Source of the DNA: Trichodesmium sp. MAG_R03
GTDB taxonomy: Bacteria; Cyanobacteriota; Cyanobacteriia; Cyanobacteriales; Microcoleaceae
NCBI GenBank assembly: GCA_023356535.1
Contig: JAKQYF010000023.1
Coordinates: 1-36,246 of the forward strand
Direction: 5' to 3'
DNA: 36,246 nucleotides
Numbering within the stretch: the first letter of the stretch is position 1; each line of letters starts with the position of its first letter. The notes under the pieces are model-generated. The model was not told where the DNA came from. It worked only from the letters and a program-made list of their open reading frames with translations, and searched no databases. Shown one piece after another: positions 1 through 7,494 of this stretch. The translations under genes were made by a program, and so were the position numbers.

Positions 1-1294
1 CTAAACGAATAGTAGAGAGACTGACTGGAATAGCAGATAAATATTGAATTAATTGCCAAGCTTCCTTTGAAGAAGTTGCATAAAAATTATTAATTTGTTC
101 TCTAGGAGTCAGAGGTTCTTCGTCTTCCTCTTCCTCTTCCTCTTCTGGCTCTGAAACCATCAATTCTGAACCTAATCCAGCACCGGCACACCAACTAGTT
201 CCTTTTCCCACCATAACATTAACCCAAGCAGCCATTGATTCTCGTTCTAAATTGAGAATTGGTAACTTAACTGTTTGTTGATTAAGATATTTTCCTTGCC
301 AAAATTCAACAGCAACTGCCTGCCATTTTTGAGTAGAATTTTCCTTTTGATCATTTCCCAATCGCAGTCTAATAGAATAGCAAAGATTTGTACCTTCCCA
401 CATTCTTTCAGGAAAAGGATTGAGGAGAGTTAACTTTTCTTTTGTCGCCCATTGTTGGAGAATATTGATAAATTTATGGTTAATCCAAGCTAGGGAAATA
501 CAATCACTAAGCATCAAAATTAACCGTCTACTATTAGATGAATTTAACTCTTGAGGAGATAGAGTAATAGAAGGAGAATAAAAAGGATGAATTTGCAAAA
601 TTTCGGAATTATTATCCCATTTAATGCGATAAAGTTTGATATCTCGAAATGCTCCTAAATGTTCTAGAAAATCTCGAACTTCTGTTAATAAAGATTGCCA
701 GAGAATCATAGAATCAGTATCTTCTATGAGCAAAGCAACATCTAACCAACGTTCTTGTTTAGGAGATAAAACTGGAAAATAACGGGGAAAGTTAAGGGTA
801 CTAAGTTCTGCACTTATTTTGGCAGTTTCATTGACATCTAATTCCTGAGCAACTCGAGAATTTACTTTTTGTTTGAGGAGTCTAATAAAGCGGCTTAATT
901 CTAGAGTATTACGAAAAATTACCGTGTCTGGTAATTTTATAGGCAATTTTTGTTTAGGAAAAGATTTTTCTTCTGTTTTTTGAGATTTATTCGATGATGG
1001 AATAGTTAAAGGATATTGAGAAGAAGAAGACTTACTAATACCTTCATTTGGTTGTTTACTACCACCTATTTTTGAATCTGGAAAATCATTAGATTTATTA
1101 TAGTTTTTATCAGTTTGTTCCCTACTACTTGAGATTAAATTTTGAGAGTCATTTTGTTCTTGTTCTTGTTCTTGTTCTTGTTCTTGTTCTTGTTGACTAA
1201 CTTGATGCATAAACCATAAAACCTCTGCCATTTGGATCGGATCCAGGTCCCATTGTTCTGTATTTATAAAAGCTATGATTTTTTTTAACATCAT
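1..1294 (-). CDS. SAV_2336-like / degenerate vWA protein, 3' end cut off by window edge
   Basis: The frame is open from an ATG pair at 1294/1291 to the left edge, about 431 codons, so the C-terminus is missing. The first 30 residues are helical, followed by a low-complexity linker with six Gln-Glu dipeptides (about residues 34-46) and a Ser/Lys-rich stretch to about residue 125. From about residue 185 a vWA-like Rossmann core begins with LDVALLIEDTDSM, in which the usual MIDAS DxSxS is altered to EDTDS. A second acidic run of mostly Glu lies near residue 385-395. This arrangement matches proteins annotated as SAV_2336 N-terminal domain-related, which sit beside MoxR ATPases and CHAT or trypsin-like effectors. 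It lies 195 bp downstream of the MoxR gene on the same strand. Inference: the adaptor or sensor of a vWA-MoxR-effector conflict system. The family call is from memory of the motif; the domain limits are approximate. Confidence 0.7.
   Translation of the reverse strand, partial: MMLKKIIAFINTEQWDLDPIQMAEVLWFMHQVSQQEQEQEQEQEQEQNDSQNLISSSREQTDKNYNKSNDFPDSKIGGSKQPNEGISKSSSSQYPLTIPSSNKSQKTEEKSFPKQKLPIKLPDTVIFRNTLELSRFIRLLKQKVNSRVAQELDVNETAKISAELSTLNFPRYFPVLSPKQERWLDVALLIEDTDSMILWQSLLTEVRDFLEHLGAFRDIKLYRIKWDNNSEILQIHPFYSPSITLSPQELNSSNSRRLILMLSDCISLAWINHKFINILQQWATKEKLTLLNPFPERMWEGTNLCYSIRLRLGNDQKENSTQKWQAVAVEFWQGKYLNQQTVKLPILNLERESMAAWVNVMVGKGTSWCAGAGLGSELMVSEPEEEEEEEDEEPLTPREQINNFYATSSKEAWQLIQYLSAIPVSLSTIRL
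1157..1192. repeat. Six tandem copies of hexanucleotide TTCTTG inside the vWA-like gene
   Basis: Six perfect TTCTTG units on the plus strand read as (CAA GAA)6 on the coding strand, giving a (Gln-Glu)6 linker. The unit is a multiple of three, so copy-number change would alter linker length without breaking the frame. Confidence 0.95.
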
Positions 1295-1344
1295 TTAGTA
1301 GAAATATAGAGGAAAGAACTAACCTGTCAGGAAACAAATTTTAG

Positions 1345-1489
1345 TTTGTAGTAGCACCTTAGTCGGTTAAAATTGTTTGTAGTAGGACCTTAGTCCATTT
1401 TATCCGAGGGCTAAAGCCCTAATAGGAGGTTTGATTATTACTATTGTATCTGAGAGCTAAAGCCCTACAACAAAGTTTGATTATTACTA
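1345..1489. repeat. Paired short repeats in the MoxR-to-vWA gap
   Basis: Two copies of TTTGTAGTAGNACCTTAGTC lie at 1345-1364 and 1376-1395. Next come two near-copies of a GAGGGCTAAAGCCCTA motif (about 1406-1421 and 1452-1466), each followed by TTTGATTATTACTATT. The first motif is a short palindrome (AGGGCT-AA-AGCCCT). The block fills most of the 195-bp gap inside an otherwise operon-like cluster and could form RNA hairpins between the two cistrons. Confidence 0.8.
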
Positions 1490-2437
1490 TTATTCTTCTC
1501 CAGTTGTATTGAGATATGCCATTAAACGCTCAATTATTGCCTCTTTTTCCTGAGCATTAGGCGATGGTTTATTCATTAACATAAACCCTACATTAAGTAA
1601 CTGATCAGTTGCCAAAGGTCCCTTTTCTCTTTTCCTCACAAACTCAGAAATTCTGGCTTCAATATCTTGAGTTAAATTATCCCCTAAATGGGCTCTAATA
1701 ATATTAGTTAGCTCATCTTTAGTAGGTTCTTGAATTTCCAGTTGAATGCAACGACGTTTAAAAGGTAAAGGAAATTCTCTTTCTCCATTACTCGTCATTA
1801 TTATAATAGGAAATTTATCACAAGTGATACGTCCATCCACAACTTTATGGGAATTACCATCATAGGTTTCAACAGTTACTTCTTGATAATTCTGATATTT
1901 TTTTAATCTTTGTAGTTCTTTAATAATAAAATAACCTTCCTCAAAAATATTGAGTAAATCATTAGGTAAATCAATATCACTTTTATCAATTTCATCAATT
2001 AATAATACCTTCGGTTTTTGAGAAGAACACATGGCAGTTCCCAAAGCTCCTAAACGGATATAATCTCCAATATTAAGTTGCTCTTTTTCCTGTTGATTAA
2101 TTTGAGCATCCTGTAAACGAGCGATCGCGTCATAATAATATAATCCTTCCTGTAAGGTACTCCTGGTATTGATTGGCCAATGCAAAACTTGTCCTAATTT
2201 TAATTCGGAGGCGATCGCCCTAGCCAAACTAGACTTACCGGTTCCTGGCTTTCCGGTCACCAAAAGAGGGCGATGTAAATAAATAGCCATATTAACAGCA
2301 TTAATAACTTTCTCATTTGCTTGAAAATTATTCTTTTGTTCTTCCTGTTGATTAAAATTCCGCCAAGGGGGAGCTTCTGGCCATTTCTCCACAGTATGCT
2401 CTGTATTATCTCCCTTAAAAATTTGCCAATTACTCAT
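1490..2437 (-). CDS. MoxR-type AAA+ ATPase
   Basis: A 315-residue single-domain AAA+ ATPase. The Walker A motif is GKPGTGKS (residues 62-69) and Walker B is VLLIDEID (144-151). A sensor 1 region reads IIIMTSNGERE and is followed by the PFKRRC arginine motif typical of MoxR proteins. MoxR ATPases act as chaperone-like remodelers that usually work with a vWA partner; here the vWA-like gene follows directly downstream and a CHAT peptidase gene lies upstream, all on one strand. The start at 2437 is the only sensible ATG before the conserved core, yet a heptamer array ends 3 bp upstream of it, so no normal Shine-Dalgarno site is available. Function inferred: energy-dependent switch of a VMAP-type conflict system. 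The ATPase call itself is secure. Confidence 0.93.
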   Translation of the reverse strand: MSNWQIFKGDNTEHTVEKWPEAPPWRNFNQQEEQKNNFQANEKVINAVNMAIYLHRPLLVTGKPGTGKSSLARAIASELKLGQVLHWPINTRSTLQEGLYYYDAIARLQDAQINQQEKEQLNIGDYIRLGALGTAMCSSQKPKVLLIDEIDKSDIDLPNDLLNIFEEGYFIIKELQRLKKYQNYQEVTVETYDGNSHKVVDGRITCDKFPIIIMTSNGEREFPLPFKRRCIQLEIQEPTKDELTNIIRAHLGDNLTQDIEARISEFVRKREKGPLATDQLLNVGFMLMNKPSPNAQEKEAIIERLMAYLNTTGEE

Positions 2438-2440
2438 GAG

Positions 2441-2630
2441 TTTTAGGTGTTAGGTGTTAGGTTTTAGGTTTTAGGTATTAGGTGTTAGGTGTTAGGTGTT
2501 GGGTGTTAGGTATTAGGTATTAGGTTTTGGGTTTTGGGTTTTAGGCTTTGGGTTTTAGGTTTTAGGTTTTGGGTTTTAGGTGTTAGGTTTTAGGTGTTAG
2601 GTATTAGGTATTAGGTTTTGGGTTTTAGGT
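2441..2630. repeat. Heptanucleotide tandem array (STRR-type), about 27 units
   Basis: The plus strand is a run of 7-mers with consensus TNTTAGG or TTTTGGG (variants TGTTAGG, TATTAGG, TTTTAGG, TTTTGGG) for about 190 bp. It resembles the short tandemly repeated repetitive sequences known from cyanobacteria. It is G-rich on one strand and lies in the leader of the MoxR gene, reaching 3 bp from its start codon. On the coding strand every unit carries TAA or CAA, so over 21 nt all three frames are closed. Confidence 0.95.
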
Positions 2631-2711
2631 TTCAGAATTAACAAATTGATAATATCTTACTACAAAATAAATTAATTTTTGCCACAAGGTTAGCTAATAA
2701 GTAGTGCTGAA

Positions 2712-4826
2712 TTAATACCCAAACTTATATTGTCTTTTTTTTGGATAATTATAAGGATTTTCACATAAAAAGCAAAGATGATGTCCTAAATGATGAGGCT
2801 GACTTGAATGAGATTCTCGCCTCTTCTTTGCCACATATTTAGGTAAATCTTGTAGATTTAAAACATTGTCATTATCAGGGTTTATTAATGTATCTAAATC
2901 TATAAGGTGATTAACATTATACTGTTTACATCTAGACCATAAAGCTATAGGAATTCCCGTCTCTATCATCAACTCATAGCTAATATTTTCTAACTCTTCT
3001 AATTTAAAAGGAAAATTAATCCCCAGGATATTCCTTTGACAATCAATATTTTTCAAATAATTATTATCAAGATTTTGACATTGGCAAGCTAAAATATAGT
3101 TACTCAAATTAATCTTTTGTATATTTCTCTGAAGATTTTTCCATTTATCTTTCCATGATTTACAGCAATGTCTATAAGCTATGTGTAAACGTTGAGATGA
3201 ACGAATATGAACAGAAATAAAATTACCACACCCTATCCTTTCATATGTTCTTATTCCATACTCCCAACAATCAACAGGCAAAGATAATAAATTATCAGGA
3301 AGAACCCATTCTATAGCAATATCCCAATCTTTCTCTGGAGGTAAAATATTTTCTAATTCTTCATTGCATTCTTCCATTAGTTTCATAATATTTTCTTCAA
3401 CCTCTGCCTGACTATAAGTTCGATCAGCTTGAAAAGTCTTTGGCAACTTTATAGGCCGAAACTGTTCAGAAGATTCAGGAATTGCCAACCATGTATTAAC
3501 CCGGAATTTATCTGCATCATTTTTCTGAATTTTTGTGCTTTCTAATTTTAAATCTATCGCCAAATAGATATAATTATTATCATCAATAGACTGATTTTCC
3601 TGATTTTCCAACAAATTAGAATCAGTAATATCAAACTTTTTATTTTCGTTTCTTTTAGAGAATGTAGATAATAAACAATCATTAGATTCTATCTTTTCTT
3701 TAACCTCTTCTTTTTGAAATAAATAACCATTTTCTACCCTCATAAAAATAACAGGTGCAGCAAAATCATTACCTAAATAATCAGCTTCTAAAGCCACACG
3801 ATAACGACCATTTTGAGCAGCCACATCAACAGGTTCACCCTTAGCTAATCTTCCATAAAATTCCGCAGAAAAGGCATTAGCTGTAGCATTCTGTACCTTA
3901 TATTGCATTGCCACTACCACAGGAATATTTTGAGCCACAATTTTAGGAGCAACTCCCTTAAAAGCTTCAGATGCAGACTGCTTTCCTCCTTCACAAGCCT
4001 GTAAAAAAACAATACCAGGGCGATGACGAACAAATAATCCGGCAAAAAAATTCTCATTAACCCATTTAGCTCGAATTCTCTTCCCAACTTTTCTTCCTAA
4101 AGCAATTTCTCCTACTTTTTTTCCTGCTTTATCCTCAAAACGACCATGACCAATAAAATGAAAAATATGAGGTTTTCTCTCTAATAACTTATCAATTTCA
4201 ACTTTTGTAGCAGGATTTATAATAGGTAATAATTCAATTTCTTCAGATTGTTCCTTCGCCAACTCTTCCAAATACTCTTGTACTTCTGCATATTCGACAG
4301 GACCTTCATCCTCAGGCGCAGAAATAGCTAAAGCAATTCTCAATTTTTCACCTGGTTTTAATTGTATTGTTTTAGCAGAATTCCATAAAGCACGACGCCG
4401 AGAAAATACTAAATTAGGGTCTGTTCCTAACCAAATCGTACCTTGATTAATCTTTTTAGGAATACATAAAAATTCCCAAGGTAAAGCAGCAAATTCTGGC
4501 ATTTCTTCTTCATCAATATCTAACTCTATTCGTAATTTTTGCTCTTTTTCCTGTACAACTTGAAAGTAAAAATTAATAAAATCTTGACCTAATTTAGAGT
4601 CAAATAAACTATTAAATAAAGCTTCCCCCAACTGACAAGTTTCTTCCGCACTTAATTTATGATTACTGGCAACCTCCAAAAGCCCTTGAATTTCTTGTTG
4701 TTTTTCTTGATAACAAAAGTCTCCAGATGGTCTTCCTAAAGATTTCTTTGCATCATCATATTTTTCAATTTCCACATGATGATTATTTTTCAGATGAATA
4801 CGATAAATATAATAACTATTAGACAT
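2712..4826 (-). CDS. CHAT-domain peptidase with probable VMAP-C tail
   Basis: About 704 residues from the ATG at 4826; a TTG two codons further upstream is less likely. Numbering here counts from that TTG. Residues 1-100 are a helical N-terminal region. Residues about 130-365 are a CHAT (caspase-HetF-like) domain, with HFIGHG giving catalytic His229 and VFLQACEG giving catalytic Cys280, so it looks active. After an acidic, Asn-rich linker (380-420), residues about 420-690 start with LAIDLKLE and include VLPDNLLSLPVDCWEYG, which I match to the VMAP-C (vWA-MoxR associated protein C-terminal) domain. The gene is 66 bp downstream of the 300-aa gene and 274 bp upstream of MoxR, same strand. Family knowledge: CHAT effectors are caspase-like proteases that cut proteins on activation. 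Inference: effector of the ternary system. The VMAP-C label is less sure than CHAT. Confidence 0.88.
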   Translation of the reverse strand: MSNSYYIYRIHLKNNHHVEIEKYDDAKKSLGRPSGDFCYQEKQQEIQGLLEVASNHKLSAEETCQLGEALFNSLFDSKLGQDFINFYFQVVQEKEQKLRIELDIDEEEMPEFAALPWEFLCIPKKINQGTIWLGTDPNLVFSRRRALWNSAKTIQLKPGEKLRIALAISAPEDEGPVEYAEVQEYLEELAKEQSEEIELLPIINPATKVEIDKLLERKPHIFHFIGHGRFEDKAGKKVGEIALGRKVGKRIRAKWVNENFFAGLFVRHRPGIVFLQACEGGKQSASEAFKGVAPKIVAQNIPVVVAMQYKVQNATANAFSAEFYGRLAKGEPVDVAAQNGRYRVALEADYLGNDFAAPVIFMRVENGYLFQKEEVKEKIESNDCLLSTFSKRNENKKFDITDSNLLENQENQSIDDNNYIYLAIDLKLESTKIQKNDADKFRVNTWLAIPESSEQFRPIKLPKTFQADRTYSQAEVEENIMKLMEECNEELENILPPEKDWDIAIEWVLPDNLLSLPVDCWEYGIRTYERIGCGNFISVHIRSSQRLHIAYRHCCKSWKDKWKNLQRNIQKINLSNYILACQCQNLDNNYLKNIDCQRNILGINFPFKLEELENISYELMIETGIPIALWSRCKQYNVNHLIDLDTLINPDNDNVLNLQDLPKYVAKKRRESHSSQPHHLGHHLCFLCENPYNYPKKRQYKFGY

Positions 4827-4892
4827 CAGCAAACACTTATTTAAAAATTAATTAAAAAATTAATAAATATAAAACTAAACAAGGAGATAAAT

Positions 4893-5795
4893 TTACCGTG
4901 GCAACTTTAAATCCCACTCTTCCTGGTGACCTTCAATAAATTTCTTAGCAGCCTCTTCTGGATTCAAACCTAACAAATCTTGAATTCTTTCAGGAAGCCT
5001 AACTAAAACAATATCGCTAATATTAGCTGTCAACCAATTAATATCAATATCAGCCCAGGTTGTCCCAGTTAAAGTAATAGATTTTATTTGTTTAGGAACT
5101 TTAAAAATAACCCCAAACTTAACCGTACCAACTTTCTGTATTTCCTTGTCTTGAATTCGCCAATAACACTCTGGTGAACCCATTCCTTCAGCTACAATTT
5201 CTGGACAACCCAACTCATATTTACAGTCAGGAATAACAGCAAAAGCTTTAAATTTATTTTTACTTGCAATATTAGCCTTCAAATTAGCAGGAACAGACTT
5301 TAATACCTCCGTTATCATAGAAGAATCAATAGCAGCATCCCAAGTTAAATTATGATTAATTCCTATATCCATACCCACACCAATTTTGAGAACTGGTTGC
5401 CATTGATGTTCAGGAAAAATACTTTGAATCATTGTTTTTTCTTCACTAAACTTAAGGTCACAAGTTAAACGCCAAAACTTAGCTCCTGGTTGAGGACGCA
5501 AATTAACATTTAGAGTTAAATAATAAAAATTATAATCATCCTTCATTTGTTGCTTGATGAGATTATTTAACTCTATTCCAGCTTCTTTAAATCTTTTTTC
5601 TGTTAAGTGAATTAACTCATTTTGAGGGTTGCCAAAACGAACTTTAGTCTCCTGTAAATCTTTAATCATCCTGGCAGTAATTCCTAACTTTTTACCACCA
5701 GCTAATACGCCCTCTTGTTTTTGGACTTCTGTAAATAGTTCTTGTAGTAAACTTTCTGCTTGAGCAAAATCAGGTAAATCAAATTTAGCATTCAT
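4893..5795 (-). CDS. Unrecognised 300-aa protein, first gene of the CHAT/MoxR/vWA cluster
   Basis: I do not recognise this family. From the ATG at 5795 it has 300 residues; the frame extends 13 codons further to a TTG, but those codons encode a Tyr/Phe-rich run that looks non-native. The N-terminal 90 residues are helical and charged. The middle (about 95-240) alternates hydrophobic and polar residues as in a beta-rich fold, for example FYYLTLNVNLR and FWRLTCDLKF, and has several Trp. The C-terminus (about 265-300) is helical. There is no signal peptide or membrane segment, so it is probably cytosolic. It is 66 bp upstream of the CHAT gene on the same strand with only an AT-rich spacer, which suggests co-transcription. 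Its job in the cluster is unknown: a ligand sensor or an inhibitor of the protease would both fit. Confidence 0.75.
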   Translation of the reverse strand: MNAKFDLPDFAQAESLLQELFTEVQKQEGVLAGGKKLGITARMIKDLQETKVRFGNPQNELIHLTEKRFKEAGIELNNLIKQQMKDDYNFYYLTLNVNLRPQPGAKFWRLTCDLKFSEEKTMIQSIFPEHQWQPVLKIGVGMDIGINHNLTWDAAIDSSMITEVLKSVPANLKANIASKNKFKAFAVIPDCKYELGCPEIVAEGMGSPECYWRIQDKEIQKVGTVKFGVIFKVPKQIKSITLTGTTWADIDINWLTANISDIVLVRLPERIQDLLGLNPEEAAKKFIEGHQEEWDLKLPR

Positions 5796-6000
5796 TAATT
5801 TTTTATAAAAATATAAATTATCAAAACACAGCAAATTCTAATGTATAATTATATCTTGCTAATAAGATTTTAATCCTCAAACATTATTTTGTAGTATAAC
5901 TGTAGTTTTTGACGGATATTACCTAATTATCCGGATGGCATACCCTAGTATTTGAAAATAGAAACTGAAGTAAAAATTTTGTGTTGATGGGTATGAAAAA

Positions 6001-7494
6001 ATGAAACTATTTCAGAGTATCATCTCATTGTTAGTTACTGGTGTCACAGCGATCGCTCTACCAAATGTGACATTAGCAACAAACCTTAAATTTGATTTAG
6101 ATTTTACTACATCAAATCAGAATATTTGGGGCGAGGAAAACAACAATTTTAGTTGGGATGGTGACAATGCTTCATTAGCAGTAGAGTGGAATGAGTCATT
6201 AGCAAAAAACTATTCTCTGCTTAAAAATACTGGTTGTGCTCAAAAAATTTGGGGTGTTTGTGTTTGGCCAAAAATTGAAGAATTAAATGTAGGTTTTAAT
6301 GCTTTTACAGAAGGTAATTTAGGTTTACAAAATACTTTTAATTTAAACGGTGGTATTGTTGATGCTTTAATTCCAGTTGACTTATTTTTTGAAATTCCAG
6401 ATTCCCCTGTAAAAGCAGGAGAAATATTGACAATTCAATCAGATTTTTCTTTTGATGATAATTCTAGTTTCTCGACAAAAGGTATTAATGCATCCTATGA
6501 TTTAGATCTAATATTTGATGTAGCTACAGGAGTAGATATTAACCCTGTAAATCAACTAGATTTAGGATTTGATATTGATGAAAAAATTAATCTAGTAAAT
6601 CTAGATGGAAATAATATTAATTTACAACTAGATGAAAAATTTGGAGCTTTTGATATTAGTTTACCTCAAGTAAATACAACTGGATTTAAGTCTGAAAATC
6701 CTCTCAAAAATCAATTAATTTCATCTGGTGAGGATGAATTTATGAAAGCAGCCATAGATTTAGATGGTTTAGCTAGCCTCTTATTTGGATTACCATCTTT
6801 GCAAGAAAAGCAAGAATTAGATTTAGGAACTTTTGGGAATCTTGGTTTCTACTACAATCTTTTAGATATAGAAGCAGCAATAACTTTATCAATGTTCCAA
6901 AATTTTTCTTTAACCAGTGAGTTACCAGCAATATTAAAGTTAGAAGATAACACAATAATCAACTTTAATATTGGGGATGAAATTTCCTTAACCATGCCCG
7001 ATAATATAGGAAATTCCCTAGAAGTAGAAGCATTTATTGATTTTAATGCCTTATTTACCAATTCTACTAATTTAGAAATTGATTTTGCTCTAGATTTTAT
7101 AGCAGGAGAATTTGGTTTAGAATTACCTTTGGTTGGCGAGAAAAATCTAGGTCCTTTGTTTGAGAAAAGTATTGGTATTTATGAGACTACTTTTGAGTTA
7201 TTTGATAACACATTTCAATTAGGTGGTTTTAATCAAGAAAAAGTTAATTTCAAAATAGGAACTGTCCCAGAGCTTGAGCAGCCTCAAACACAAATTAGGT
7301 TGCTATCAACAGCATTCTCTCAACCAGTAGAAGATAGTTTATTATCCAGCCAAATAAACCGGAAAAAAGTACCTGAACCTAGCTCAATAATAGGTTTATT
7401 AACATTAGGAATTTTTGGAGGTAGTTTAATATTTAAAAAATCAGAGAAATCTGTCAAGCCCATAAAAAAAGCTAAAATTTTGGTCACTAAATAA
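6001..7494 (+). CDS. PEP-CTERM sorting domain protein
   Basis: A 497-residue secreted protein. Residues 1-26 form a signal peptide ending near LPNVTLA. The body is Asn/Asp-rich and made of short beta segments with many LDLGF-like motifs and no Cys except a pair near residue 80-88. The C-terminus carries VPEPSS (PEP at 458-460), a hydrophobic span of about 15 residues and a basic cluster, which is the exosortase-recognised PEP-CTERM signal. About 20 residues follow the first basic pair, a longer tail than usual. In this family the tail is cut and the protein is exported to the outer surface or matrix. No exosortase is in the window. A five-codon reading frame (ATG at 5987, stop TGA at 6002-6004) overlaps the start codon and could couple or dampen translation. 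Substrate and role are unknown. Confidence 0.88.
   Translation: MKLFQSIISLLVTGVTAIALPNVTLATNLKFDLDFTTSNQNIWGEENNNFSWDGDNASLAVEWNESLAKNYSLLKNTGCAQKIWGVCVWPKIEELNVGFNAFTEGNLGLQNTFNLNGGIVDALIPVDLFFEIPDSPVKAGEILTIQSDFSFDDNSSFSTKGINASYDLDLIFDVATGVDINPVNQLDLGFDIDEKINLVNLDGNNINLQLDEKFGAFDISLPQVNTTGFKSENPLKNQLISSGEDEFMKAAIDLDGLASLLFGLPSLQEKQELDLGTFGNLGFYYNLLDIEAAITLSMFQNFSLTSELPAILKLEDNTIINFNIGDEISLTMPDNIGNSLEVEAFIDFNALFTNSTNLEIDFALDFIAGEFGLELPLVGEKNLGPLFEKSIGIYETTFELFDNTFQLGGFNQEKVNFKIGTVPELEQPQTQIRLLSTAFSQPVEDSLLSSQINRKKVPEPSSIIGLLTLGIFGGSLIFKKSEKSVKPIKKAKILVTK

Follow-up and report, generated by a model that had tools for sequence, protein, structure and literature searches.

What is the function of a protein of about 300 amino acids that heads a four-gene cluster containing a CHAT peptidase? 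The question is raised by a stretch of 36,246 nucleotides from Trichodesmium sp. MAG_R03 (contig JAKQYF010000023.1 of assembly GCA_023356535.1), referred to here as the window. At the start of the window four open reading frames (ORFs) lie in tandem on the minus strand and encode the protein in question, here called X300, a CHAT-VMAP-C protein, a MoxR-type ATPase, and a SAV_2336-type protein. A first-pass annotation had read the cluster as a vWA-MoxR-VMAP ternary conflict system with X300 as its trigger sensor or an inhibitor, and this interpretation is partly supported by the analysis. X300 is tied to an intact protease across many systems, features few conserved residues of a catalytic type, and has no hydrophobic N-terminus or long hydrophobic helix; for these reasons it is best read as the substrate of CHAT and as an effector. 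The predicted fold suggests tentatively, at nearly an even chance, that X300 is a CHAT-activated pore-forming effector that, once cut by CHAT, would make pores in the membrane of its own cell. To our knowledge, few substrates of CHAT proteases have been identified. Mass cell death of Trichodesmium is of ecological interest. The features of the pair are listed below, and X300 residues are numbered throughout on the 313-residue ORF that begins at TTG, in which the 300-residue form begins at residue 14.

4893 to 5834, minus strand: X300 ORF in its longest form, 313 amino acids from TTG.
4893 to 5795, minus strand: X300 (about 300 amino acids), predicted latent beta-pore-forming effector; the start is the ATG at 5795, as in homologues, giving 300 amino acids.
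2712 to 4832, minus strand: CHAT-VMAP-C protein, 706 amino acids from TTG, with an ATG two codons further in.
3810 to 4628, minus strand: CHAT peptidase domain (Pfam; protein residues 69-341) with His229 and Cys280 intact.

The linkage of X300 to CHAT was determined from the neighbourhoods of all 47 X300 places of an order-wide search, the window included, and of two plasmid records; the places are referred to by L numbers. Eleven were set aside as lying at a contig edge (L035, L040, L047, L058) or as fragments (L072, L076-L081), which leaves 38 usable places. The proteins of relatives were called from ORFs and their gene starts are approximate. A CHAT gene lies directly downstream of X300 on the same strand in 33 of the 38 places (including L046, whose CHAT gene is broken) and is adjacent in another orientation in two (divergent in L037, convergent in L075), while L060, L062, and L068 have no CHAT beside X300. 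An M48 peptidase in L068 was considered as a replacement for CHAT and dropped, since a LemA gene intervenes. In L062 (3034-12859) the X300 gene without CHAT lies near a pPIWI_RE three-gene island. VMAP-C is found in 10 of the 38 places (the window, L034, L036, L038, L039, L042, L046, L049, L052, and L053) and a MoxR match without a VMAP-C match in 4 more (L037, L069, L071, and L074), and both counts are lower bounds, as several of the fetched stretches are short. Because CHAT adjoins X300 in 35/38 places while VMAP-C is present in 10/38, X300 belongs with CHAT and not with MoxR/vWA; the recurrent linkage that the first-pass annotation named as a check is borne out for CHAT and not for the MoxR/vWA/VMAP part.

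The CHAT match of the 706-residue protein (PF12770) is over the Pfam cut-off with an E-value of 4e-14, and PADLOC matches the protein to SAVED_CHAT with 38.8 bits. The peptidase had been described as intact, and both His229 and Cys280 are kept in 36/36 CHAT domains compared, which are the one in the window and those of 35 relatives over 200 bits; the domains of L077, L080, and L081 and second CHAT copies with weaker matches were left out. Pairwise distances in X300 and in CHAT are correlated with a Mantel r of 0.94. This correlation of the sequences indicates that X300 and CHAT travel together; alone it cannot tell co-evolution apart from shared descent. A counter-example is the pair L034 and L036, in which X300 is 85% and CHAT is 55% identical.

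X300 represents a family that has no name in Pfam, NCBIfam, or PADLOC, in line with its having been left unassigned at first. The window protein has no match in these three databases at E ≤ 1. A Pfam search with the 29 members of the X300 alignment (A1) at E ≤ 10 revealed no family, and the matches of single members were to unrelated families with E-values of 0.05 or worse. The X300 profile found nothing among the PDB sequences except two designed proteins at an E-value of 8. Protein searches revealed 55 relatives from the single sequence, 148 from the alignment (120 of them listed), and 24 from a distant member. Among the genomes searched, X300 was found in 13 of the 59 in the set of relatives, 6/386 across the phylum, and 36/388 of the order, where the three sets overlap and each count includes the window's own genome. 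The family consists of two clades, A (with the window protein) and B (L050, L051, L073), which are about 23% identical and clearly homologous (hhalign 99.8%, E 9e-28). Among the matches listed, one relative (P0122) is named as Desulfobacterales, and therefore the family is not strictly cyanobacterial.

The modules found in the CHAT proteins or their neighbours differ from place to place. They include NB-ARC-TPR in L044, GUN4 in L050 and L051, FGE in L037, PNP in L054, EAD10 with a second CHAT in L055, an FGE-sulfatase in L061, and a caspase C14 in L064. L059 features NACHT, L073 has an AAA match over the cut-off and a NACHT match below it, and L074, on the Anabaena plasmid pANACY.03, features iSTAND, MoxR, and vWA. 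The labels of L045, L065, and L066 were assigned because these places resemble L044 and L064, and not from a domain scan. Mapped on the tree of X300, the label VMAP requires 6 changes, of which at least 4 are forced by strongly supported branches. All partner labels together require 14 changes versus 17.2 in shuffles, and therefore the choice of partner reflects both inheritance and exchange. Additionally, L043 and L048 show a partner type without a name, in which X300-CHAT is followed by proteins of about 637 and more than 1750 residues (637 and 1827 residues in L048) without a Pfam match.

AlphaFold models of clades A and B were built from separate alignments. Foldseek matched both to hemolysin/leukocidin-type pore-formers, which make up 50/50 of the matches listed for clade A and 49/50 for clade B; the toxin-fold matches span X300 residues 61-313. 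No gasdermin structure is among the structure matches listed, which alone does not exclude kinship, and a viral structure library gave one match at E ≤ 0.001 that was not informative. The part of X300 that precedes the toxin-like core consists in the model of a helix (residues 23-43) and a linker (residues 42-51) with a predicted local distance difference test (pLDDT) score below 50. The linker motif EGxLAGGxKLG is conserved in clade A, where the linker is longer in 4 of the 29 alignment rows, and the motif is not seen in clade B. The beta moment, determined in 11-residue windows, reaches 2.5 in residues 149-172, and the single top window (2.53) is at residues 122-132. Three parts of the protein are of interest for the proposed activation.

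5655 to 5795, minus strand: X300 N-terminal helix and Gly-rich linker of the model, residues 14-60, outside the toxin-fold matches; putative inhibitory part.
5682 to 5711, minus strand: EGxLAGGxKLG linker, conserved yet unstructured (alignment and model); putative CHAT cleavage region.
5319 to 5390, minus strand: X300 residues 149-172, the longest segment in which amphipathic beta periodicity is strong; candidate for the strand that inserts into the membrane.

X300 is probably cytosolic. Its N-terminus, MNAKFDLPDFAQAE, has by eye no hydrophobic stretch and no visible secretion signal, and the top 19-residue hydropathy is 0.9, at position 250, with no long hydrophobic helix. In clade A, 66 columns are ≥90% identical, and the conserved columns include aromatic, Gly, Pro, and Leu ones. 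Residues of a catalytic type account for 12/66 of these columns and for 3 of the 38 conserved columns across both clades. The alpha/beta-hydrolase partner expected by Kaur et al. was considered as an identity for X300 and dropped, as the model is beta-rich and there is no Pfam match.

Several results weigh against a pore-forming effector. The template modeling scores (TM-scores) of X300 to pore-formers are at most 0.38, and a second structure aligner ties the pore-formers with common beta-sandwiches for clade B. The Leukocidin profile (PF07968) matches 0/29 X300 members at E ≤ 10 and nothing in the window's own genome. A fusion protein in L046 (9267-13937) features SAV_2336, NB-ARC, TPR, and then X300 at the C-terminus of its 1545 residues; X300 is thereby placed at the C-terminal end of a vWA-type protein, which is read as the sensor end in PMC10907252, where the authors prefer a C-terminal part of the vWA protein that senses and a VMAP N-terminal domain that is the effector. 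The fusion itself leans towards an effector role for X300. The CHAT gene downstream of it is frameshifted, and the L046 locus may therefore be decaying.

The low TM-scores and the mixing of clade B matches with generic beta-sandwiches in the second aligner also suit another kind of protease-activated effector, a generic beta-sandwich whose released fragment would bind a target and form no pore, and nothing beyond an effector or substrate of CHAT is needed to explain the linkage and the exchange of partners. Such a protein is nevertheless judged unlikely, since a single class of toxins makes up nearly all the matches listed by Foldseek for both clades, which were aligned separately, and the clade A toxin matches cover 142-193 residues, compared with 114 for the sole generic sandwich listed.

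More doubtful still is a role of X300 in silencing its CHAT protease, as an inhibitor or a chaperone. The gene order, the one-to-one linkage, and the correlated distances would also suit a protease-inhibitor pair; however, partial X300 genes adjoin a full-length CHAT domain in L077, L080, and L081, which would leave the protease unchecked (an assembly error is possible), L060 and L062 have X300 but no CHAT beside it, and the X300 of L046 is part of a fusion with a SAV_2336-type protein. The fragments L076, L078, and L079 do not adjoin such a domain, and L072 has no CHAT within its 4.4 kilobases. In L072 (531-4199) one ORF encodes a partial VMAP-C, the C-terminal half of X300, PNP, a weak NACHT match, and TPR, and looks like a recombination product. 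A role as trigger sensor, in which X300 would bind a signal from the invader and pass it to CHAT, is very improbable: X300 heads the cluster, is soluble and beta-rich, and in L046 stands at the putative sensor end, but the neighbouring modules already provide likely sensors and vary while X300 stays, and a sensor would be expected to vary, yet clade A keeps its 66 nearly invariant columns. Both roles first proposed for X300 are thus less likely than that of an effector, given its constancy beside the protease, its few conserved catalytic-type residues, and its toxin-like predicted fold.

The four-gene arrangement is confirmed by ORF coordinates and domain matches, and the parts of a vWA-MoxR-VMAP ternary system with a CHAT peptidase are present, with the SAV_2336-type protein as the probable vWA component. 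VMAP-C, SAV_2336_NTERM, and CHAT are all found over their cut-offs.

2754 to 3512, minus strand: VMAP-C domain (Pfam; protein residues 441-693).
1490 to 2437, minus strand: MoxR-type AAA ATPase, 315 amino acids, with AAA_5 over the cut-off and bpMoxR just below it.
2 to 1294, minus strand: SAV_2336 N-terminal (vWA-like) protein, 431 amino acids; the gene runs off the contig end.

The VMAP-C match (PF20028) scores 66 bits versus a cut-off of 27 (E 5.6e-18). The 315-residue protein had been named a MoxR ATPase, which is upheld by the AAA_5 match, with bpMoxR at 25.6 bits versus a cut-off of 27. The 431-residue protein matches SAV_2336_NTERM of NCBIfam with 268 bits versus a cut-off of 200. Pfam at E ≤ 1 has no match for it, and hence no vWA match, nor for X300. 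The label vWA-like has indirect support, in that the SAV_2336 profile also recognises, at 204 bits, an Anabaena protein in L074 that Pfam names VWA_CoxE. The degenerate metal ion-dependent adhesion site (MIDAS) also claimed for this protein may be the stretch LIEDTDSM, which resembles one. Because the contig ends within the SAV_2336 gene, the cluster is incomplete on one side. In the SAV_2336-type protein (2-1294), a Glu-Gln low-complexity run (QEQEQEQE) lies close to the N-terminus and a stretch of acidic residues close to the end of the contig. Elsewhere the C-terminal modules of SAV_2336-type proteins differ, with an OAA-type lectin and FGE in L052 (14315-17233) and a receiver, a caspase, and FGE in L049 (15443-19279). 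The same genome contains a second X300-CHAT-VMAP-C-MoxR cluster (contig C181, L034 3150-7093), whose X300 is about 48% identical to that of the window, and in all 24 CHAT matches (fragments included), 7 VMAP-C matches, and 2 X300 places. Next to the cluster, a divergent gene at 6001-7494 encodes a secreted-looking product with a PEP-CTERM-like tail (VPEPSS, by eye).

For X300 as a pore-forming effector the following scheme is proposed. By analogy with published ternary-system schemes, invasion would be sensed by the VMAP-C part together with the MoxR ATPase and the SAV_2336/vWA-type protein, and these would activate CHAT. Active CHAT would cut X300, in clade A, in the Gly-rich linker that joins the N-terminal helix to the beta-rich core, and the latent core would be released from the N-terminal part. 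The released core would perforate the cell's own membrane and perhaps stop an infection. Elsewhere the X300-CHAT pair is found with other likely sensors, including NB-ARC-TPR, NACHT, iSTAND-MoxR, and EAD10 proteins. More broadly, and somewhat short of an even chance, X300 may be a new family of protease-gated pore-formers, a second "gasdermin" on an alpha-hemolysin-like fold that is cytosolic, CHAT-released, and part of a cassette plugged repeatedly into ternary MoxR, NB-ARC/NACHT NOD-like receptor (NLR)-like, EAD, and other systems of multicellular cyanobacteria. In the literature covered (titles and abstract openings, with preprints and most subscription journals outside), no hemolysin/leukocidin-like protein paired with CHAT was among the matches listed, which speaks weakly for novelty.

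Because X300 accompanies CHAT one to one through many kinds of system, it points to a substrate of this protease that can be tested directly. Should the predicted fold prove right, an architecture familiar from toxins that attack animal cells would have an intracellular counterpart for a bacterium's own regulated death, in parallel to the gasdermins. If the proposal is true, some of the predicted VMAP systems would also gain an effector, in organisms related to Trichodesmium.

As far as tested, the sensor half of the window's cluster conforms to the VMAP ternary systems described in PMC7159879. The two share VMAP-C, MoxR, a peptidase in the N-terminal region of VMAP, and probably a vWA-type component. 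In that paper the caspase-type VMAPs are said always to have an alpha/beta-hydrolase neighbour, whereas the neighbour in the window is X300; no alpha/beta-hydrolase was found among the four cluster proteins scanned, the other ORFs of the window being outside the scan and the contig ending in the SAV gene. The pore-forming effector described there is the two-transmembrane (2TM) SLATT domain, and the words hemolysin and leukocidin occur 0 times in the text of the paper. Additionally, at 28 of the 38 usable places the stretch retrieved around X300 contains no match to VMAP-C. The type III-E CRISPR pair Csx29 (TPR-CHAT) and Csx30 (PMC10028731) shares with the proposed X300-CHAT system an immune-system CHAT protease with a defined protein substrate, but Csx30 is a sigma-factor inhibitor with an RNA-guided trigger, whereas X300 is a predicted pore-former. 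The nuclease-protease pairs and canu (PMC12799240) likewise feature a latent effector and a protease acquired repeatedly by unrelated immune systems; there the effector is a nuclease and the protease is trypsin-like or CanA, in contrast to a predicted pore-former and CHAT.

With the alpha-hemolysin/leukocidin family (PF07968) X300 may share the core fold, as predicted over residues 61-313. It differs in having no detectable sequence similarity and no hydrophobic N-terminus, in its extra N-terminal helix, and in its place in a protease gene pair. Since its sequence does not match the family profile and no secretion signal is visible, X300 is not classed as a leukocidin; the prediction is that it acts in the manner of one, inside the cell. 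Johnson et al. in 2022 are said to have described the bacterial gasdermin as a latent pore-former encoded beside the gene of a caspase-like protease, with proteolytic release and cell death. The bacterial gasdermin-caspase pair and X300-CHAT share a pore-former gene, predicted in the case of X300, next to that of a caspase-like protease, and may share the logic of release and death. The predicted fold of X300 instead resembles small beta-barrel toxins, and its putative inhibitory part is N-terminal. X300-CHAT is best read, by analogy, as a functional counterpart of the gasdermin-caspase pair.

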